Part shown: positions 2,675 through 37,445 of the stretch, piece after piece
Position numbering within the stretch: the first letter of the stretch is position 1
Layout of the letters: each line of letters opens with the position of its first letter
Source: Pseudonocardia xinjiangensis
Lineage (GTDB): Bacteria > Actinomycetota > Actinomycetes > Mycobacteriales > Pseudonocardiaceae
DNA: 56,684 nt
Direction: 5' to 3'
NCBI RefSeq assembly: GCF_012911925.1
Contig: NZ_JAAXKY010000030.1
Location: forward strand, 1-56,684
The notes under the pieces: generated by a model
The model's input: only the letters and a program-made list of their open reading frames with translations
Told to the model about the DNA's origin: nothing
The model's database searches: none
Made by a program: the position numbers and the translations under genes

Positions 2675-2815
2675 CGTTCTCCCTCAGTCAGCCCCTGGCG
2701 ACGGTACCGCCGGAGCGGAGTGCCCGGCTCGTCGCCTCCACCACCACGACCATGCCCGCTGCCCCGGCATTCCGTCCGGGACGCGAACGCGGTGTGAACG
2801 GTCCTCGACGCGGTG

Positions 2816-28493: not shown

Positions 28494-28519
28494 GGAATAA
28501 CTGCCCGGCATCTCCTGTC
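28494..28519 (+). promoter_or_regulatory. SigR-type promoter P1 (GGAAT-N18-GTC)
   Basis: GGAAT at 28494-28498 is followed after exactly 18 bases by GTC at 28517-28519, about 83 bases before the SDR start. It matches the SigR/SigH consensus GGAAT-N18-GTT except for the last base. The same arrangement recurs at 31144 and 32591. Confidence 0.65.
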
Positions 28520-28541
28520 AGCGGGGGTAGGCAGGAGATGC
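28508..28541. promoter_or_regulatory. Inverted repeat over the P1 -10 region
   Basis: GCATCTCCTG (28508-28517) and CAGGAGATGC (28532-28541) are perfect 10-bp arms around 14 bases. They span the -10 GTC and the expected transcription start of P1, so a repressor site is more likely than a terminator. Confidence 0.5.
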
Positions 28542-28601
28542 GGGCGCGCGCCCCCTGTCTCCGGGAACGGCCGCCGGCCGGCCGAAGGCAGGAGAAGAGC
28601 A

Positions 28602-29363
28602 ATGAGTCTTTCCGGCAAGACAGTCATCGTCACCGGTGGGGCCTCGGGAATCGGAGCCGTCTACTCGGCCGCGCTCGTCCGGGAAGGCGCCGTCGTCTAC
28701 ATCGCCGACATCACCGACGGAACCTCGCTCGAGGCTGAGCTCTCCCAGGGGGAACCAGGTCGAGCCATTTTCGTCCGCACCGATGTCGGCGACGAGGAGT
28801 CCGTCCGCGCGCTGGTCGGCACCGTCATCACGGAACACGGCCGGATCGATGTTCTGATCAACAACGCGGCGCTCTTCGCCACTCTCGAACCGACCCCGTA
28901 CGACCAGATCGACCTCGCCCTGTGGGACCGGGTGATGCGGGTCAACCTCGCCGGCGCCTTCCTCCTGTGCAAACACGTGGGGCCGCACATGGCGGCGCGG
29001 GGAGCGGGCCGGATCGTCAACATCGGTTCCGGTACGAGCATCAAGGGACACCCAGGAATGCTCCACTACGCGGCGTCGAAAGGCGCGATCACGGCGCTGA
29101 CCCGGACACTGGCGCGCGAACTCGGCGAGCACGGCGTCGTGGTGAACATGCTCTCCCCCGGCTTCACCCTCTCCGACACCGTCGTCAAGGACAACCCTGG
29201 CCTGGTCGACGTGGCGAGAGCAGGTGTCGCCACCCGCTCGATACACCGTGACATGTATCCCGACGATCTGGTCGGCGCACTCCTCTTCCTGGCCTCCGAA
29301 GCGAGCGGCGGTTTTCTCACCGGCCAGACGCTGCTGGTCGACGGCGGGCAGCTCAACACCTGA
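28602..29363 (+). CDS. SDR family oxidoreductase
   Basis: This 253-residue classical short-chain dehydrogenase has VTGGASGIGAVYSAAL at the N-terminus, FVRTDVGDEES, LINNAALFATL, the catalytic SGTSIKGHPGMLHYAASKGA (S, Y, K) and the C-terminal FLTGQTLLVDGGQLNT. The YAASK pair and DGG end are intact, so it should be active, probably NAD-dependent. ATG 28602 has an AGGAGAAG ribosome-binding site. It opens the gene set that ends with the SigR-type sigma gene and lies under promoter P1. Confidence 0.93.
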   Translation: MSLSGKTVIVTGGASGIGAVYSAALVREGAVVYIADITDGTSLEAELSQGEPGRAIFVRTDVGDEESVRALVGTVITEHGRIDVLINNAALFATLEPTPYDQIDLALWDRVMRVNLAGAFLLCKHVGPHMAARGAGRIVNIGSGTSIKGHPGMLHYAASKGAITALTRTLARELGEHGVVVNMLSPGFTLSDTVVKDNPGLVDVARAGVATRSIHRDMYPDDLVGALLFLASEASGGFLTGQTLLVDGGQLNT

Positions 29364-29456
29364 GAGTTTTGGGCTACGGCCGTCTCGGCGAGAAGGCATC
29401 GATTCACGAGCTCATCCCGCCAATTCCCCATGTGACCGACAGGAGAGGTGACGGAC

Positions 29457-30008
29457 GTGCCCTACATCGACCCACCCACCGACGCCGCACTCGACCCGGC
29501 GGCTCGCGCCCAACTGGACGCGTTCGCCGAGGACCACGGCCATTTCGCCGCGGTCCGCGCGATATTCGCCCACTTCCCGGCCGCGTTGGCCGCACTGGAC
29601 AACCAGTACAGGCTGATCATGGGCTACGGCGCCCTTGACCGCTGGGTACGGGAAGCCGTGTTCGCGGTCTGCGCCGACGCGCGCGGTGACAACTATCTCG
29701 CGGAGGCACTGTTCGCAGAGGCCGTCCGCCACGGCGCAGAAACCGAGCGGCTGAACAGCTTCCTGACCCGGACGCCTGACACCGCGGTAGCGGACGACGG
29801 GGTCGGCGAACTGATCCGCTTCAGCCGCAAGATGGCCCTGGAGCCCTACAAGTCCGTGGAACGCGACGTCCGGGCCCTGTACGAAGCCGGCTGGTCGGAC
29901 GCCCACCTCCTCGAAGTCCTCACCGTCGTCTCACTGTCCGCCTACATGGACATCATGACCCTGTCCGTCCACCTGGGACAGGCCGAAGCACCGAGCGGAC
30001 ATCACTGA
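29457..30008 (+). CDS. AhpD-like (carboxymuconolactone decarboxylase fold) protein lacking catalytic cysteines
   Basis: This protein of about 183 residues has the all-helical AhpD/CMD fold: PAALAALDNQYRLIMGYGAL, WVREAVFAVCADARGDNYLA, AGWSDAHLLEVLTVVSLSAY and MDIMTLSVHL. At the place where AhpD-like enzymes carry CxxC, this protein reads GDNYLAEAL, so both thiols are missing. It is followed 17 bp later by a paralogue with an intact CAYC. A non-redox partner of a mixed complex is plausible. GTG 29457 sits 11 bases after GGAG; an earlier GTG at 29448 is too close to that site. Confidence 0.82.
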   Translation: MPYIDPPTDAALDPAARAQLDAFAEDHGHFAAVRAIFAHFPAALAALDNQYRLIMGYGALDRWVREAVFAVCADARGDNYLAEALFAEAVRHGAETERLNSFLTRTPDTAVADDGVGELIRFSRKMALEPYKSVERDVRALYEAGWSDAHLLEVLTVVSLSAYMDIMTLSVHLGQAEAPSGHH

Positions 30009-30025
30009 ACCCCAGGAGGCCGGAC

Positions 30026-30586
30026 ATGGCTTTGATCGACTACCCCGATCTGCACACGCTGGACCCGGAGAACCGCCGAGCGATCGACCGCTTCACGGAA
30101 GAACAAGGCCGACCGACCCTGCTGCGGATGATGCTCGCCTACTCCCCGCCCGCCCAGGAGGCGATGGACAGCCTCTACCACCCGGTCGTGGAGAACGGCA
30201 GGCTCTCTCGCCGGTTGAAGGAATCCCTTTTCGTCGCGGCGAGCGACGCACGCAAGTGCGCATACTGCGCGGGCGGCCATTCCCGTTTCCTGGTCAACGA
30301 GTTCGGCTACAGCGAAGACGCGGTACGCGCCATGCGCGGCGGCACGGAGTCGGAAGCATGGACCGACGCCGAACTCGCACTGGTGCGGGTCGTCCGCTCG
30401 GCCGCAGCGGAACCGGGATCGGTGACCGAGGACGACTTCGCCGCCCTGCGCGGCGCCGGCTGGTCCGACGCAGAGATCGTCGAGGGCCTGATCATGGCCT
30501 GCCACGCGGGCTGGACGAACACGGTCGCCCAAGCCCTGCATCTCGAAGACGACCTGGTCACGCCGGAGTTCGACGGCTACTTCTGA
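30026..30586 (+). CDS. AhpD-like peroxidase-related protein with intact CxxC
   Basis: This is a 186-residue CMD/AhpD-fold protein. The redox motif is visible in SDARKCAYCAGGHSRFLVNE, with both cysteines and the following histidine as in alkylhydroperoxidase AhpD. Later helices, AGWSDAEIVEGLIMACHAGW and NTVAQALHL, parallel the preceding gene. It may reduce hydroperoxides or act in a catabolic step. The gene start (ATG 30026) is 17 bp after the paralogue's stop, with a GGAGG ribosome-binding site. Confidence 0.9.
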   Translation: MALIDYPDLHTLDPENRRAIDRFTEEQGRPTLLRMMLAYSPPAQEAMDSLYHPVVENGRLSRRLKESLFVAASDARKCAYCAGGHSRFLVNEFGYSEDAVRAMRGGTESEAWTDAELALVRVVRSAAAEPGSVTEDDFAALRGAGWSDAEIVEGLIMACHAGWTNTVAQALHLEDDLVTPEFDGYF

Positions 30587-30671
30587 CTCGCCGCCCATGT
30601 TTCCCTGCTCCACATCACGATGCCGCCGCCTGCGTTACTTCCTCAGGCATCCGAACCACAGGAAAGAGCCC

Positions 30672-31124
30672 ATGAAAATCCATGAACTCGGCCATGTCGT
30701 GCTCTTCGTCAAGAGCCTGGCACGTTCTGCACACTTCTACCGGGATGTGCTCGGCTTCGAGGCCCTCGAGACACCCGAGCACATGCGTGGCAAGGTGATG
30801 GCGTTCTCCTCGGGCCGCACGCACCACGAGCTTCTCCTCATCGAGGTCGGCAAGAACGCGCCCCATCCCGGAAACGGCCACCGTGCCGGGCTCTACCACA
30901 TCGGCCTCAAGGTGGGCGACAACGACGAGGAACTGGCCGCTGCCTGGGAGCACCTCAAGCGCGAAGGCGTTTCCGTGCTCGGCACCGCCGACCACACGGT
31001 GACACACAGCCTCTATCTCCACGACCCCGACGGGAACGAGATCGAGCTCTACGTCGACATGCCCGGATCGGACTGGACCGACGTGGAGCAGGTACTGGCA
31101 CCGACTCGCGCACTGCGCCTCTGA
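30672..31124 (+). CDS. VOC family protein (extradiol-dioxygenase/glyoxalase-like)
   Basis: This is a 150-residue vicinal-oxygen-chelate protein with metal-ligand positions all present: His in ELGHVVLFVKSL, His in AGLYHIGLKVGDND and Glu in LHDPDGNEIELYVD. It matches the small catechol 2,3-dioxygenase-like or glyoxalase group. HSLYLHDPDGNEIELY is typical of one-domain dioxygenase-like members. Substrate is unknown. ATG 30672 with AAGAG upstream is chosen over the longer frame from 30597. It is part of the 28.6-33.2 kb set. Confidence 0.88.
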   Translation: MKIHELGHVVLFVKSLARSAHFYRDVLGFEALETPEHMRGKVMAFSSGRTHHELLLIEVGKNAPHPGNGHRAGLYHIGLKVGDNDEELAAAWEHLKREGVSVLGTADHTVTHSLYLHDPDGNEIELYVDMPGSDWTDVEQVLAPTRALRL

Positions 31125-31143
31125 TATTCGTCCTTTCCAGGCG

Positions 31144-31169
31144 GGAATACGGACCGCCCTTTCCCTGTC
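31144..31169 (+). promoter_or_regulatory. SigR-type promoter P2 (GGGAAT-N18-GTC)
   Basis: GGAAT at 31144-31148 (preceded by another G) and GTC at 31167-31169 are separated by exactly 18 bases. They lie in the only sizeable gap inside the gene set, upstream of the MBL-fold gene. Confidence 0.65.
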
Positions 31170-31231
31170 CACCGGGTGTGCGGCTGAGCGGAAAGTTCCG
31201 GCGAAGTCCCGGCAATGACCGGAAGACCACG

Positions 31232-32089
31232 ATGGACATCACGAAAGAGAAGAAGAGCATGGACGGATCAGTGCAGACCCTCGACCTCGACGGCCTCAAG
31301 GTGCACATCTACACCCCGCCGGACGAGTCCTTCCTGGTGAACTCGACCATCCTCGAGCTCGCCGACCGGCTCATCGTCGTCGACGGTCAGATCTTCCAGC
31401 GGTTCGCCCGCGAGGTCGGCGACGTGATCGACGGGCTGGGCAAGCCGGTCGACCGGTTCGTCCTGACCCACAACCACCCCGACCACTACTCGGGCTTCCA
31501 GCATCTGACCGAGCGCTTCCCCGGCGTCCAACTCGCCACGACGGCCTCGGTGCGCGACTACCTGGTGCGGCTGGGCCAGCAGGTCCTCGACATCCGCCGG
31601 GCGATGTTCGGGGACGAGATCGCCTCGCGGATCGTCATCCCGGACGCGGTCATCGTTCCCGGTGAGCTGGTCATCAGCGGGGTGCGGTTCCTCTTCCAGG
31701 AGTTCCACGACACCGAGGCCGAGTTCACGCTGACGATCACCCTGCCCGACCACGGCGTCGCACTGGTCGCCGACCTGCTGGCGGGGAAACACAACCACCT
31801 GTTCACCGTCCAGCCGCAGTTCGACCGATGGATCGCCGCGCTGGGCAAGATCCGGAACGACGTGGCCAGGTTCGGTCTCACGACCCTGATCGTCGGTCAC
31901 GGCGCACCGATCGACCCCGAGGCGGTGCCCGCGAACATCGCCTACCTCACGACCGTGAAGGCCGCCTACGACTCGTCGGGCACGGCGGAGGACTTCGTCG
32001 CCGCGGTCAGCGCGAGCCTGCCCGATCGCTCACCGGAGGGCTGGCTGAGTTTCTCCAGCCAGATGCTGTACGGGCACGTAGCCCCGTAA
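31232..32089 (+). CDS. MBL-fold metallo-hydrolase
   Basis: This is a metallo-beta-lactamase-fold hydrolase of about 285 residues. The metal site motif is in FVLTHNHPDHYSGFQHL (HxHxDH form, with Asn between the first two His). VALVADLLAGKHNHLF gives the bridging Asp, and LIVGHGAPID gives the last His. Substrate is unknown; such genes often serve lactone, thioester or quorum-signal hydrolysis. ATG 31232 has GGAAG upstream. A second in-frame ATG at 31259 after a purine run is equally possible. It lies downstream of P2. Confidence 0.88.
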   Translation: MDITKEKKSMDGSVQTLDLDGLKVHIYTPPDESFLVNSTILELADRLIVVDGQIFQRFAREVGDVIDGLGKPVDRFVLTHNHPDHYSGFQHLTERFPGVQLATTASVRDYLVRLGQQVLDIRRAMFGDEIASRIVIPDAVIVPGELVISGVRFLFQEFHDTEAEFTLTITLPDHGVALVADLLAGKHNHLFTVQPQFDRWIAALGKIRNDVARFGLTTLIVGHGAPIDPEAVPANIAYLTTVKAAYDSSGTAEDFVAAVSASLPDRSPEGWLSFSSQMLYGHVAP

Positions 32090-32132
32090 CCAGGCCCGGC
32101 CGCACCACCGTCGAGACGAAAGGTGAACGGAA

Positions 32133-32570
32133 ATGCTGAGTTTCGGGACCGCGCAGCGGCTGGCCAACGCCGTGCTGGCGGAGGGTGAGCGCCGGAACAG
32201 CTCCGCGCTGACCGTCGCCGTGCTGGACTCCGGAGGCCATCAGATCGTCCTCTACCGGCAGGACGGCGCGGGCTTCGTCCGGCCTCAGATCGCGATCGGC
32301 AAGGCCTGGGGCGCCCTCGGTCTGGGCTTCAGCTCGCGGGGTATCGCCAATGTGGCGGCGCGGGTGCCGGCCTTCTTCGACGCGCTCGCCGTCGCCGCCG
32401 AGGGCCGGATGTTCCCCGCAGCAGGCGGGGTGCTGCTCAGAACCCGCGCGGACGGCATCATCGGCGCTGTCGGCGTCAGCGGCGACAACTCCGACGTCGA
32501 CGAGGCCTGCGCCATCGTCGCCGCGCATGAGGTCGGCCTCGAACCCGAGCCGCTCGAGCCATCCGCGTAG
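32133..32570 (+). CDS. HbpS/GlcG family heme-binding-like protein
   Basis: This 145-residue protein of the GlcG/HbpS family has LTVAVLDSGGHQIVLYRQDG, PQIAIGKAWGALGLG, FPAAGGVLLRTRADGIIGAVGVSG and DNSDVDEACAIVAA. In Streptomyces, HbpS is an extracellular heme-binding redox sensor modulator; here no signal peptide is seen, so the protein is probably cytoplasmic. Many GlcG members accompany catabolic operons with unknown function. ATG 32133 follows AAAGGTGAACGGAA. It precedes promoter P3 and the sigma gene. Confidence 0.88.
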   Translation: MLSFGTAQRLANAVLAEGERRNSSALTVAVLDSGGHQIVLYRQDGAGFVRPQIAIGKAWGALGLGFSSRGIANVAARVPAFFDALAVAAEGRMFPAAGGVLLRTRADGIIGAVGVSGDNSDVDEACAIVAAHEVGLEPEPLEPSA

Positions 32571-32590
32571 CCCCCGGTCGACCGGCTCCT

Positions 32591-32616
32591 GGAATAAAGC
32601 CGGCCACGAGCCGGTC
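32591..32616 (+). promoter_or_regulatory. SigR-type promoter P3 (GGAAT-N18-GTC), upstream of the sigma gene
   Basis: GGAAT at 32591-32595 and GTC at 32614-32616 are separated by exactly 18 bases, about 42 bases before the sigma factor start. This position suggests that the sigma factor transcribes its own gene. Confidence 0.65.
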
Positions 32617-32657
32617 GACCGGTCACGGGGTGTCCGACGGCATGAGGGGCTGATGTG

Positions 32658-33221
32658 ATGAGCGAGTCCGCATCGACGGCGAGGACCACGCCGGTGGAGT
32701 ACGCGCAGGAGGCGTTCGGCTACAAGCCGTCACTGTTCTCGACGGCGTACCGCATGACGCACAACTCAGCCGACGCCGAGGATCTCGTGCAGGAGACCTA
32801 CCTCAGAGCACACAAGAACTGTTCGAGCTTCCGCGGCACGTACTTGCGGGCCTGGCTCACCCGTATCCTCACGAACACCTTCATCAACACCTATCACGCC
32901 CGGAAGCTGCGGCCCGAAGAGCTGGGACTCGACGGGCTCGAGACCCAGCTCGACAACTCCCCCGAAATGCCGGGAATCGGGCGCGACCCCGCCGAGGAAG
33001 TCCTCGCCCGCTACCCCGACGACGACCTCAAGGCGGCGCTGACGTCGTTGCCGCTGCCCTATCTCCGGGTGGTCCTCCTGGCCGATGTCGAGGGTTATTC
33101 CTACAAGGAGATCGCCGCGATCGCGGGGATCCCCATCGGCACGGTGATGAGCAGGCTGCACCGCGGACGGCAGGCACTGCGGCAGACCCTGCTCGACGCG
33201 GGCGTCACGCCTCCCTCGTAA
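32658..33221 (+). CDS. ECF sigma factor, SigR/SigH (ECF12) type
   Basis: This is a 187-residue two-domain sigma factor. Region 2 reads YRMTHNSADAEDLVQETYLR, WLTRILTNTFINTYHARKL. Region 4 reads VVLLADVEGYSYKEIAAIAG and PIGTVMSRLHRGRQALR. These are the signatures of the actinobacterial SigR/SigH group controlled by thiol redox. The usual zinc anti-sigma gene (rsrA type, about 100 codons with HxxxCxxC) is absent downstream; after 87 bp come oppositely oriented ABC genes. A GTG at 32655 is an alternative start. It probably directs promoters P1-P3. Confidence 0.92.
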   Translation: MSESASTARTTPVEYAQEAFGYKPSLFSTAYRMTHNSADAEDLVQETYLRAHKNCSSFRGTYLRAWLTRILTNTFINTYHARKLRPEELGLDGLETQLDNSPEMPGIGRDPAEEVLARYPDDDLKAALTSLPLPYLRVVLLADVEGYSYKEIAAIAGIPIGTVMSRLHRGRQALRQTLLDAGVTPPS

Positions 33222-33308: not shown

Positions 33309-34061
33309 CTAGATCGGGTCCAGGATTCGCTGCAGGAACTGCCGGGTGCGCGCGTGGGACGGCTCGCCCAGCACCTGCGCAGGTGGCCCCGACTCCAGCA
33401 CCACCCCGCCGTCGATGAACAGCACCTGGTCGGCCACCTGCTGGGCGAACCGGATCTCGTGGGTGACGATCACCATCGTCCAGCCGTCCGCGGCCAGGTC
33501 CTTGATCACCCGGAGCACGTCGCCGACGAGCTCCGGGTCGAGCGCCGAGGTCGGCTCATCGAAGAGCATCAGCGTGGGCCGGAGGGCGAGTGCCCGGGCG
33601 ATCCCGACCCGTTGCTGCTGGCCGCCGGAGAGCTGGTACGGGTACTGGTCGGCCTTCTCCCCCAGCCCGACCTGTTCCAGCAACACCTTCGCGTCCTCGA
33701 TCGCCTCGGCCTTGGGCCGCTTCTGCACGATCACCGGGCCCTCGATGACGTTCTGCAGCACCGTCCGGTGCGGGAACAGGTTGTGCGACTGGAAGACCAT
33801 GCCGCTCTGGGCGCGGAACCGGGCGAGCGTCGCGCGGTCGACGGGCTGGGCGAAGTCGACCGAGACGGATCCGATGTCGATCACGCCGGCGTCGGCCCGG
33901 TCCAGGGCGTTGAGCGTCCGCAGCATCGTGGTCTTGCCCGAGCCCGACGACCCGATCACCGCGGTGACCGTGCCCGCCGGCACGTCGAACGAGATGTCGC
34001 GCAGGACCTGCAGGTCACCGAACGACTTGCGCAGACCCCGCACGGTCAGCAGGTCGGTCAT
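33309..34061 (-). CDS. Polar amino acid ABC transporter, ATP-binding protein
   Basis: This 250-residue ABC ATPase has Walker A GSSGSGKTTML, Q-loop VFQSHNLFPHRTVL, signature LSGGQQQRVGIARA, Walker B LMLFDEPTSALDPE and H-loop VTHEIRFAQQ. It is closest in style to the GlnQ/HisP/TcyC class. ATG 34061 overlaps the stop of the permease gene (ATGA), giving the order binding protein - permease - ATPase. Confidence 0.95.
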   Translation of the reverse strand: MTDLLTVRGLRKSFGDLQVLRDISFDVPAGTVTAVIGSSGSGKTTMLRTLNALDRADAGVIDIGSVSVDFAQPVDRATLARFRAQSGMVFQSHNLFPHRTVLQNVIEGPVIVQKRPKAEAIEDAKVLLEQVGLGEKADQYPYQLSGGQQQRVGIARALALRPTLMLFDEPTSALDPELVGDVLRVIKDLAADGWTMVIVTHEIRFAQQVADQVLFIDGGVVLESGPPAQVLGEPSHARTRQFLQRILDPI

Positions 34062-34726
34062 CGCGCCACGTACCTCTCCAGTCGCGCTTCCACCCGGTTC
34101 TGCACGGACGACAGGGCCAGGCAGATGATCCAGTAGTAGACGGCGGCGACCCCGTAGAGCGCGAAGAAGTCGAACGTCGGCGCCGCCGCCAGCTGGGCGA
34201 CCCGCAGCAGCTCGGTGACCAGGATGGTCGAGGCCAGCGAGGTGTCCTTGACCAGCGAGATCAGCGTGTTGGACAGCGGTGGCACCGCGGTGCGCGCCGC
34301 CTGCGGGAGGATCACCCGCTGCAGCGTCGTCGCGTAACCCATGCCGATGGTCTGCGCCGCCTCCCACTGGCCCTTCGGGATGCTCAGGATCGCCGCCCGG
34401 ATCACCTCGGCCGCATAACCCCCGACGTTGAGGCTGAACGCGATCACCGCCGACGGGAACGGGTCGATCACCAGTCCGAGCTGCGGCAGCGCGTAGAACA
34501 CGATGAACAGCTGGACCAGCAGCGGTGTGCCGCGGATGACGGAGATGTAGGCGCGGGCCAGCGCCGACAGCGGCACGACCTTCGAGATCCGGGCCAGCGC
34601 GACGAACAGCGCGAGCACCAGTCCGAGCGCGAAGCTGATCGCCGTCAGCGGGAGCGTCTGGGTGACGGTGGCGACCAGCATCGGCCACAGGTTGCGCCCG
34701 ATCAGCGCCCAGGTCGAGGCATCCAA
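34058..34726 (-). CDS. Polar amino acid ABC transporter, permease
   Basis: This 222-residue HisM/GlnP-type inner-membrane permease shows the family pattern YISVIRGTPLLVQLFIVFYA, NVGGYAAEVIRAAILSIPKG and the ATPase-docking EAAQTIGMGYATTLQRVILP. Several hydrophobic helices are visible. The start appears to be TTG at 34726, directly after the stop of the binding-protein gene (TAGTTG), so it relies on coupling. Confidence 0.93.
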   Translation of the reverse strand: MDASTWALIGRNLWPMLVATVTQTLPLTAISFALGLVLALFVALARISKVVPLSALARAYISVIRGTPLLVQLFIVFYALPQLGLVIDPFPSAVIAFSLNVGGYAAEVIRAAILSIPKGQWEAAQTIGMGYATTLQRVILPQAARTAVPPLSNTLISLVKDTSLASTILVTELLRVAQLAAAPTFDFFALYGVAAVYYWIICLALSSVQNRVEARLERYVAR

Positions 34727-35482
34727 CTACTGCCCACTCACGTCGGAACCGAAGTACTTCTCCGAGATCCGTGCGAGCGTGCCGTCCGCGCGCAGCTCGT
34801 CCAGGGCGCGGTTGACCTCGGGGACCAGACCGCTGTCCTTGCGCGCCGCGAACGCCTGCTCGCTGGTGTCGCCGGTACTCCCGGCGACCTTCACGCCGGT
34901 GTCGCCGGTGGTCTTCTGGTACTCGCCCACCGCGAGGGTGTCGTTCACCGTGGCGTCGACCCGGCCGTCCTTGAGCAGCCGGACGGCCTGCACGAAGCCC
35001 TCGACGGCCTCCACGTCCGCCCCGGCCCCGCGGGCGACGTCGGCCCAGTTGCTGGTCGCGGACTGCGCGGTCGTCCTGCCTCGCAGGTCGGCGAGGCTGG
35101 TGATGCCGGTGTTGTCGGCGCGCGTGACGATCACGCCCTCGGACACCGTGTAGGGCTCGGAGAGGTCGTACTCGGCCCTGCGCTCGTCGGTGATCGTCAC
35201 CTGGTTGGCGACCAGGTCGAAGCGCTTCGACTCCAGCCCGGCGAAGATCGCGTCCCACGGGGTCTGCACGAACTCGACGGTGCGCCCGAGCTTCGCCCCG
35301 ACGGCCTGGGCGACCTCGACGTCGTACCCGGTGAGCTTGCCGTCGGGGCCCTGGAAGCTGAACGGGCTGTACGTGCCCTCGGTCCCGACCCGCAGTGTGG
35401 TGGCGTCGGAGCCGCCGCTGCAGCCGACGATCATGACGGCGGACAGCAGCACGACGGCTGCGGCGAGCAACGTGCGGCGCAC
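34727..35482 (-). CDS. Amino acid ABC transporter substrate-binding lipoprotein
   Basis: This 251-residue extracytoplasmic solute-binding protein (family 3) has a lipoprotein signal ending LLSAVMIVGCSGGS, so cysteine about 19 is the lipidation site. Family segments include LRVGTEGTYSPFSFQG, DGKLTGYDVEVAQAVG, FDLVANQVTITDERR and GSTGDTSEQAFAARKDSG. It resembles cystine/glutamine-type receptors (TcyA/FliY) but the ligand is uncertain. GTG 35482 has GGAG at good spacing; the longer frame to 35578 is dismissed. Confidence 0.94.
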   Translation of the reverse strand: MRRTLLAAAVVLLSAVMIVGCSGGSDATTLRVGTEGTYSPFSFQGPDGKLTGYDVEVAQAVGAKLGRTVEFVQTPWDAIFAGLESKRFDLVANQVTITDERRAEYDLSEPYTVSEGVIVTRADNTGITSLADLRGRTTAQSATSNWADVARGAGADVEAVEGFVQAVRLLKDGRVDATVNDTLAVGEYQKTTGDTGVKVAGSTGDTSEQAFAARKDSGLVPEVNRALDELRADGTLARISEKYFGSDVSGQ

Positions 35483-35649
35483 GGGATTCTCCTTCGGATG
35501 GGGCACGAGTGGCGCCCGGGATACCGCGGACAACGGCAGCGAGCAGCCCGGCCAAGGCGGCGAACGGTATTTTTCCACGTCGCCGCCGACCGACCGCAGC
35601 AGTGCCTGCGTTGATCCCGTCGCCCGCTCGTCGTCCGGGAGGTTCAGGG

Positions 35650-36170: not shown

Positions 36171-37445
36171 GTGTCCCGACCCGCGCAGGCACCACGCCCG
36201 CGTGCCCCGCTCCGGCCGGTGCCCGCCACGGTGTGCGGGCTGGTCTCGATCTGCCTGCTGTTCGCGCTGCCGGTCGCCACGGCGGCCGAGCCGGACGCCG
36301 GTCTGCTGCCCGGTCTCGGCAGTGTCGGCTGGTGGACGGTGGTCGTCGTCCTGGTGCTGCAGGCCCTGGCGGTGGCGTGGGTCGGCCGGTTCCCGACGAC
36401 GGTCCTACCGGGGCTGGCCGCCGTGCCGCTGGTGCTGGTCTGGGCGGTCCCGGGTGGGGCGTTCAGCCTGACCGCCGTCGCCGAGCTGGCCGGGGTGTTC
36501 CTCGCCGTCGTCGCCCGCCCGCTCCGCCGCCTGTGGGTCGCGCTGGCGGTCACCGCGCTGCTGCTGGCGACCGCGCAGTTCCTCAACGAGGTCCGCAGCG
36601 GCACACCGGACATCGGCACGACGGTCGCCGCCGCGCTGTTGCAGGGGCTCGTCGTCGTCGGGCTGCCGCTGCTGTTCGGCCTGGTGGTCGCCGCTCAGCG
36701 CGACGCCCGCGAAGCCCGTCGCCACGAGGTGCAGGCGCTGCGGCGGGAGCAGGACGCGCTGCTGCAGGCCGCGGTGTCGCGCGAGCGCATGGCGATGTCG
36801 CGGGAGCTGCACGACATCGCCGCCCACCACATGTCCGGTATCGCGCTGATGGCCGCGGCGATGGACCGGCAGATCGACTCCGACCCCGCCACGGCGAAAC
36901 AGTCGGCGCGCCAGGTCCGCGAGCAGAGCAGGGCCGTCCTGGACGACCTGCGGCGGCTGGTCGGCCTGCTGCGCGAGGACGCCGACGCCACCCGGCCCGT
37001 GGAGAGCCTCGACGCCGTGGTCGCGCTCGTCGAGGCCCGCCGGCAGACGGGATCCGAGATCGACCTGGTCGTGCCCGACCGGGGCACCGGGTCCGGCACG
37101 GGTGTGGGCCCGCTCGCTCAGCTCGTCGCCTACCGGATGGTGCAGGAGTCGCTGGCCAACGCCGCGGCGCACGCGCCGGGTGCCCGGTGCACGGTCGAGA
37201 TCAGCGACCCGCAGGACCGCCGGCTCACGATCACCGTGCGCAACGGCGCTCCCGCCGGACCCGACCCGGGACCCGGCGGTGGGTTCGGACTGGTCGGGAT
37301 GGCCGAGCGGGCCCAGCTGGTGGGCGCCGACCTCACCTACGGCGCCACCCCGGACGGCGGCTGGGAGGTACGCCTGACGCTCCCGGTCGACGACATGATC
37401 AGTACGATGCGCGCGCCCGCGCCGCTCCCGGAGGACCCTGCATGA
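36171..37445 (+). CDS. Two-component sensor histidine kinase, NarL-family type
   Basis: This is a 424-residue membrane kinase. About five hydrophobic segments in residues 15-170 form the sensor part. A short coiled coil (QRDAREARRHEVQALRREQD) leads to the HisKA_3 box SRELHDIAAHHMSGIALMAA, with His about 213. The ATPase domain has QESLANAAAHAPGARC (N box) and GGGFGLVGMAERAQLVGADL (G box). GTG 36171 has GGAGG at good spacing. Its stop overlaps the response-regulator start (ATGA). The signal is unknown. Confidence 0.93.
   Translation: MSRPAQAPRPRAPLRPVPATVCGLVSICLLFALPVATAAEPDAGLLPGLGSVGWWTVVVVLVLQALAVAWVGRFPTTVLPGLAAVPLVLVWAVPGGAFSLTAVAELAGVFLAVVARPLRRLWVALAVTALLLATAQFLNEVRSGTPDIGTTVAAALLQGLVVVGLPLLFGLVVAAQRDAREARRHEVQALRREQDALLQAAVSRERMAMSRELHDIAAHHMSGIALMAAAMDRQIDSDPATAKQSARQVREQSRAVLDDLRRLVGLLREDADATRPVESLDAVVALVEARRQTGSEIDLVVPDRGTGSGTGVGPLAQLVAYRMVQESLANAAAHAPGARCTVEISDPQDRRLTITVRNGAPAGPDPGPGGGFGLVGMAERAQLVGADLTYGATPDGGWEVRLTLPVDDMISTMRAPAPLPEDPA

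Follow-up and report, generated by a model that had tools for sequence, protein, structure and literature searches.

A SigR-related sigma factor with a shortened -10 loop and the GTC-ending promoter-like sites of its probable gene module in Pseudonocardia xinjiangensis

Three promoter-like sites in a seven-gene cluster of Pseudonocardia xinjiangensis raise the question of which sigma factor reads them. The window, i.e., the whole stretch of DNA analysed (56,684 nucleotides), is an entire contig (NZ_JAAXKY010000030.1, hereafter C232) of a 7.76-Mb genome assembled in 308 contigs. The cluster encodes an SDR-family dehydrogenase, two AhpD-like proteins (CMD1 and CMD2, the latter related to carboxymuconolactone decarboxylases), a VOC-family protein, a metallo-beta-lactamase (MBL)-fold protein, an HbpS/GlcG-like protein and a sigma factor of the extracytoplasmic function (ECF) type. 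They are arranged as three runs, SDR-CMD1-CMD2-VOC, MBL-HbpS and the sigma gene, with one site before each. SigR and SigH recognise GGAAT-N18-GTT, and the cluster sites end in GTC. In the reading that we favour, at a probability of roughly 0.6, an ECF sigma factor with a changed loop leads a likely horizontally acquired, self-activating module and reads GGAATA-N17-GTC apart from SigR/RsrA. The sigma factor would transcribe from the sites before its own gene, the MBL-HbpS pair and the SDR-CMD1-CMD2-VOC run, and the sites would define three transcription units; site 3 would close a positive loop on the sigma gene, while the GTC-reading module would run apart from the resident SigR/RsrA with its GTT sites.

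The initial annotation, made from the letters alone, had placed GGAAT-N18-GTC on the forward strand before the SDR, MBL-fold and sigma genes, one of the three thus preceding the sigma factor's own gene, and the motif scan confirmed this. All three matches extend to GGAATA-N17-GTC, and all lie in gaps, each 5' of a gene on the same strand, the start codons being 83, 63 and 39 bases past the last base of sites 1, 2 and 3. The spacing equals that of the SigH promoter, numbered -34 to -29 and -11 to -9 (PMC6411747), and position -5, where G or C is favourable according to the same source, is G, C and C at sites 1, 2 and 3. Counted by this numbering, transcription would begin near 28528, 31178 and 32625. 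Over the whole window, both strands included, GGAAT-N18-GTC occurs four times versus 1.19 expected, and 3 of 100 shuffles reach four; this count is modest evidence, so it is the clustering before genes that matters. The fourth match (2748-2773, minus strand) precedes the start codon region of a 6-phosphogluconate dehydrogenase gene by 74 bases and is without the sixth-base A. In the 621 intergenic bases of the seven cluster gaps, 0.0022 GTC sites are expected on that strand at the genome-wide rate (58 GTC sites), and the probability of three or more is 2e-9; at the rate of intergenic DNA alone, 0.0088 are expected and the probability of three is up to 1e-7. For any 4.2-kb stretch of the genome, three GTC sites on one strand have a probability of about 0.004.

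The surroundings of two of the sites call for caution. The -10 of site 1 lies at the edge of an inverted repeat, and that of site 3 in an arm of a terminator-like hairpin, which begins 4 bases past the HbpS stop codon (RNA fold of 32570-32630, -40.8 kcal/mol, z -4.9); the inverted-repeat search found none at site 2. It could be argued from these repeats that the motifs are partly incidental, site 3 deriving from the terminator hairpin and site 1 from the repeat, with site 2 as the sole promoter, if any. The half of the site 3 repeat, CCGGTCGACCGG, occurs at 19 places in the genome, which counts in favour of this explanation. We regard it as unlikely: all three sites share the -35 GGAATA, which at site 3 extends beyond the arm, and when site 3 is set aside for a conservative statistic, because of its position in the hairpin arm, the two remaining sites still have a probability of 2.5e-6 to 4e-5. 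The same sequence is a 12-base palindrome. Its 19 genomic copies, versus 3 for the reversed control, include three in the cluster, two of them around site 3 and the third within the MBL gene (31445); it was considered as an operator, and no claim is made for it.

The genome-wide scan for GGAAT-N18-GTY proposed in the initial annotation returned 94 matches (36 GTT and 58 GTC) versus 10 for the reversed control. Genes around the sites were called with a codon model trained on those stretches, and a site was counted as upstream when it lay within 350 bases of a gene on the same strand. This was the case for 21 of 36 GTT sites and 12 of 58 GTC sites, three of the latter 12 being those of the cluster. 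Outside the cluster the proportions are 21/36 for GTT and 9/55 for GTC (Fisher p 7e-5), i.e., GTT is enriched upstream of genes and GTC is not, and the GTC sites outside the cluster are mostly background. Of the 21 genes preceded by a GTT site, 14 have been identified or profile-scanned: sigR, the genes of thioredoxin reductase (trxB), Lon and IF-3 (infC), those of a PIG3-type quinone reductase, an ABC transporter, an IspD-like protein, an MFS exporter, two luciferase-like proteins (one a monooxygenase) and a VOC protein, one that gave a weak PNPOx-like hit, and two that matched nothing at the E-value set. As trxB, lon and infC are members of the SigR regulon, the presence of these genes and sigR behind GTT sites fits that regulon. 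In addition, trxBA is named as a SigR target (PMC5472188). Of the nine other upstream GTC sites, seven were scanned (Ldh_2, MFS, HATPase, methyltransferase, Glu/Leu dehydrogenase, 6PGD and one without a match), and GGAATA is present only at that of Ldh_2.

These figures bear on the simplest alternative, namely that the resident SigR reads the sites, the cluster belongs to an RsrA-controlled thiol-stress regulon and the accessory sigma factor has its targets elsewhere. The genome does encode SigR and RsrA, the sites share the -35, the spacing and the first two -10 bases with SigR/SigH sites, and the nine other upstream GTC sites may include weak SigR sites. Nevertheless, any change of the third -10 base abolishes the activity of SigH (PMC6411747), upstream enrichment in this genome is confined to GTT, and all three cluster sites have GTC versus 9 of 30 other upstream sites (0.3 cubed, 0.027). 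Considering this, we find the alternative improbable, and, judging by the genome scan, GTC is not a loose form of the SigR site.

The candidate reader of the GTC sites is the sigma factor of the cluster, a protein of 188 residues in which sigma regions 2 and 4 are the only domains found. Its closest solved structure is SigH (5zx2), and SigR/SigH with RsrA/RshA (ECF12) are its closest relatives in sequence and among solved structures. However, it scores 165.5 bits against TIGR02947 (SigH_actino), below the cut-off of 251.55, whereas the resident SigR, encoded on contig C27 with RsrA directly after it, scores 352.9 bits. A protein search found 7981 sequences; among the best 120, which were listed, 53 are 64-100% identical to the cluster sigma factor and the rest 53-58%. 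In a quick tree of 76 sequences, 55 split from 21 SigR-like ones with a support of 100 in the Shimodaira-Hasegawa-like approximate likelihood ratio test (SH-aLRT). This clade consists of the first 53 sequences, the 169-residue fragment P0056 and P0055 from Streptomyces sp. NPDC005483. Thus, the earlier designation as a SigR-type sigma factor stands insofar as the protein is an accessory relative of SigR and fails insofar as it is not SigR itself, being placed by the tree in a separate clade outside the SigR-like sequences. A group number for the clade may exist in the 2021 ECF reclassification.

The distinctive feature of the clade lies in the loop that reads the third -10 base. In the open complex of Mycobacterium tuberculosis SigH, this loop takes up the flipped base T-9, to which Thr76 and Asn77 bond; replacement of either residue by Ala severely lowers activity, and mutation of T-9 abolishes it (PMC6411747). 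In all 55 clade sequences the loop is one residue shorter, and the position of SigH Asn77 is occupied by Tyr (29), His (25) or Ser (1). By comparison, in the 64 readable of 65 SigR-like sequences the loop is long in 64, Thr76 is present in 64 and Asn77 in 60 (Tyr in 4). The cluster sigma factor keeps Thr76 and has Tyr for Asn77. It also keeps the counterparts of Trp81, Ile85 and Asn88, which read T-10 in SigH, of Ile91 and Asn92, which read G-11, and of Met181, Ser182 and Arg186, which read the -35 GGAAYA (PMC6411747), within a conserved MSRLHR. In other words, the likeness to SigR/SigH covers the -35 GGAAYA, the 17-bp spacing, the GT of the -10 and the readers of all these, while the differences are the shorter loop, the replaced Asn77 and, if the sites are indeed the targets of the sigma factor, GTC (3/3) instead of GTT. 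The protein is thus altered where the third -10 base would be read, which matches the base at which the promoters differ. Loop exchange is reported to exchange the base preferred at this position (PMC6372665). The shortened loop would take C where SigR takes T. As the change of the loop and that of the promoters are predicted to fit each other, the gene set would likely run apart from the main SigR.

Loops were also read in 27 of 80 further relatives: 19 fit the search pattern, all with a long loop, and among the other eight, seven have a long loop by eye and one, L055 (3976-4437, from an Acidimicrobiaceae metagenome-assembled genome, 41% identity), combines a short loop and His in place of Asn77 with the absence of counterparts of both His52 and Cys55, described below. 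Two other loci, L047 (4376-6264, Mycolicibacterium parafortuitum) and L048 (6899-8747, an actinobacterial metagenome-assembled genome), have SigR-like sigma genes with a long loop, followed directly 3' by an SDR gene and then, by eye, a gene of a cupin-like protein.

How the activity of such a sigma factor might be held in check is the next question. The claim that no zinc anti-sigma factor is encoded next door proved valid for the whole of C232: searches for zf-HC2 and RsrA-type proteins gave eight and four matches in the genome, respectively, none of them on this contig. ECF sigma factors without an anti-sigma factor are controlled by transcription, proteolysis or phosphorylation (PMC8999054); the cluster is likewise without a recognisable anti-sigma factor, but neither a two-component system nor a kinase or protease was found within it. 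Just before the loop, His52 and Cys55 (the latter three residues ahead of it) are invariant in all 55 clade sequences, the corresponding positions in the 64 SigR-like sequences being Tyr (64) and Phe (61), Tyr (2) or Trp (1). One may speculate that Cys55, with His52, is oxidised or metal-bound and gates promoter reading, making the sigma factor its own switch with no need of an anti-sigma factor. We rate this as quite unlikely; if true, one mobile gene would carry a private promoter code together with its sensor. His80 as a third ligand was dropped, lying near the far end of one helix (residues 60-83) in a structure model of low confidence (predicted local distance difference test score 71, predicted template modelling score 0.42).

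The proteins of the other six genes (Table 1) contribute two further observations. The MBL protein has both the metal motif and the fold of metallo-beta-lactamases: HxHxDH is kept in 33 of 33 aligned members, the hydrolase fold is whole, and identity to the MBL-fold hydrolases 8d2z and chlorothalonil dehalogenase 6uxu is 15-16%. Its close family comprises 72 clusters, each of which shares 53% identity or more with the query. As to the AhpD-like pair of the initial annotation, the CxxC of AhpD alkylhydroperoxidase is present in CMD2 and missing from CMD1, in which the catalytic cysteines are lacking in 24 of 24 aligned sequences (CMD1 and 23 relatives, with CMD2 aligned alongside). The thiol- or hydroperoxide-responsive pathway suggested for the gene set is a guess based on what the proteins are called.

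Table 1. Genes, promoter-like sites and inverted repeats of the cluster in the window.
Feature	Position	Strand	Basis or remark
Promoter-like site 1, GGAATA-N17-GTC	28494..28519	+	before SDR gene; motif scan
Inverted repeat over -10 of site 1	28505..28544	.	RNA fold -32.3 kcal/mol, z -4.4
SDR-family dehydrogenase	28602..29363	+	PF00106, PF13561
CMD1, AhpD-like without CxxC	29448..30008	+	no Pfam match; TIGR01926 weak, below cut-off
CMD2, carboxymuconolactone decarboxylase/AhpD-like with CxxC	30026..30586	+	PF02627, AhpD 6k40, CAYC motif
VOC-family (glyoxalase-fold) protein	30672..31124	+	PF00903
Promoter-like site 2, GGAATA-N17-GTC	31144..31169	+	before MBL gene; motif scan
MBL-fold hydrolase-like protein	31232..32089	+	PF00753; start by codon model and relatives; fold
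HbpS/GlcG-like protein	32133..32570	+	PF03928
Inverted repeat, terminator-like, overlapping site 3	32574..32622	.	arms 32574-32592 and 32604-32622, 95% complementary
Promoter-like site 3, GGAATA-N17-GTC	32591..32616	+	before sigma gene; motif scan
ECF sigma factor, clade beside SigR, shortened -10 loop	32655..33221	+	ATG 32658 is an alternative start

For the MBL gene, the codon model and the relatives make 31232 the more likely start, in correction of the initial annotation. Translation could alternatively begin at an in-frame GTG (31178). The transcription start of site 2, counted as in SigH, would fall on the G of this codon, and the relatives P0124, P0126 and P0129 (302-312 residues) are about as long as the form beginning there, so that a leaderless start is possible.

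The distribution of the genes was followed by assigning sigma and MBL proteins to the same contig by its size in bases; co-occurrences may have been missed, because each 90% cluster is represented by the size of its longest contig. Among contigs of at least 20 kb, 6 of 9 bearing the clade sigma factor (P0055 counted in the clade) also bear the MBL family, versus 0 of 14 bearing SigR-like proteins. The six measure 205,008 bases (this contig, from another assembly, encodes the window's own protein), 68,085, 1,652,800 (Kribbella sp. NPDC051620), 1,871,185, 83,899 and 26,827 bases. At all sizes, eight clade contigs match, together with one SigR-like contig of 1,179 bases, probably by chance. CMD1 joins the clade sigma factor and MBL in four cases (205,008, 68,085, 1,871,185 and 7,266 bases). 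Over eight pairs, sigma and MBL distances correlate with r 0.62, a value reached in 81 of 40,320 permutations. P0186, an open reading frame in which part of MBL is fused to sigma region 4 and whose contigs do not exceed 1360 bases, was discarded as a product of deletion or assembly.

Such companionship also permits the view that the sigma factor reads the sites but is held by a partner encoded in the cluster, MBL or CMD1 acting as a non-homologous anti-sigma factor or sensor. MBL is its most regular companion found, and CMD1 is an enzyme-family sequence that lacks the catalytic cysteines throughout its alignment. On the other hand, the conserved metal motif and whole fold make MBL look like an enzyme, CMD1 shares a contig with the clade sigma factor in only the four cases listed, and binding is a conjecture; we consider a partner of this kind possible but rather unlikely, though somewhat less so than the other alternatives.

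The distribution of the genes is sporadic. At the E-value set, the clade sigma factor was not found in 389 further genomes of the same family and 393 of the same class, nor MBL in 389 further genomes of the family and 395 of the phylum; the 219 genomes of the genus of G215 gave no match in a search run without a positive control. With a looser E-value, every one of 199 relatives has a SigR-like match, the best match other than the genome's own having an E-value of 6.5e-46 and about 51% identity. Searches elsewhere gave at best 50% identity on plasmids and 43% on viral contigs. No second locus for promoter comparison was found among the 80 listed of 523 relatives (best 53% identity), and in 142 loci, at E 1e-6, MBL or HbpS occurred in own-genome loci only and CMD1, CMD2 and VOC in none. 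The GC content of the cluster is 66.8% versus 71.8% in the rest of the window; at third codon positions (GC3), the first four genes have 82-85%, MBL 93%, HbpS 90%, the sigma gene 88% and seven flanking genes 91-97%. Sporadic presence and lower GC suggest horizontal spread, most clearly of the SDR-CMD1-CMD2-VOC run.

Among known systems, the ECF41 sigma factors with their COE genes are the nearest in logic. As described in PMC3426412, they have no anti-sigma factor next door, have carboxymuconolactone decarboxylase, oxidoreductase and epimerase neighbours, and act on a promoter motif before these and sometimes before the sigma gene, i.e., on a narrow local regulon. The cluster resembles them in its PF02627 and SDR neighbours and in the absence of a zinc anti-sigma factor from the contig, although SDR is not named in the oxidoreductase domain list of that paper. 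It differs in that ECF41 has a large C-terminal extension, of which the cluster sigma factor has none, in the -35 (TGTCACA at 16 bp spacing in ECF41, GGAATA here; TGTCACA was not scanned for) and in that the decarboxylases linked to ECF41 all have CxxC, as against one of two (CMD2) in the cluster. In the literature covered, from which the 2021 reclassification and most subscription papers were absent, no SigR-like clade with MBL or CMD genes closer than ECF41 was described.

Several observations weigh against the proposed GTC-reading, horizontally acquired module. Thr76 is kept in the cluster sigma factor and Thr occurs in 23 of 55 clade sequences; the four long-loop sequences with Tyr in place of Asn77 share that change; L055 shows that a short loop also exists outside the clade; and a preference for C appears to lack precedent among loops of this kind. 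The sigma tree was quick and without bootstrap, with P0055 on a long branch. Promoter-like sites of the cluster are known from this one genome, the GTC of sites 1 and 3 could be incidental in view of the strong repeats in or at which their -10 boxes lie, and the genome search behind the absence of an anti-sigma factor from the contig covered zinc-type families only. In addition, just 6 of 11 MBL contigs of at least 20 kb carry the clade sigma factor, and the GC3 of the MBL and HbpS genes is near-native. With all this taken into account, we still hold that the cluster is probably a real, sporadic module that lacks the usual zinc anti-sigma factor and is led by a SigR-derived sigma factor whose -10 loop has changed, with a matching change in the promoters. 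If so, it would represent a natural divergence of a promoter code, in which the -35 and two -10 bases keep their readers, a single base has an altered one and the local promoters deviate at exactly this base, and an imported gene set avoiding cross-talk with the main thiol-stress sigma factor of its host. It would also be an ECF module with neither an adjacent zinc anti-sigma factor nor a regulatory extension, and whether the third -10 base is set by the specificity loop, as the structure implies, becomes testable by the exchange of one short loop.

Neighbouring genes that were scanned encode an SNF2 helicase, an MFS transporter, an amino-acid ABC transporter, a histidine kinase (36219-37445, 3 kb downstream of the cluster) and a protein without a match. 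The ABC transporter genes (33309-35578, minus strand) are convergent with the sigma gene, and the best score of their binding protein, below the cut-off, was that of a cystine-binding model.

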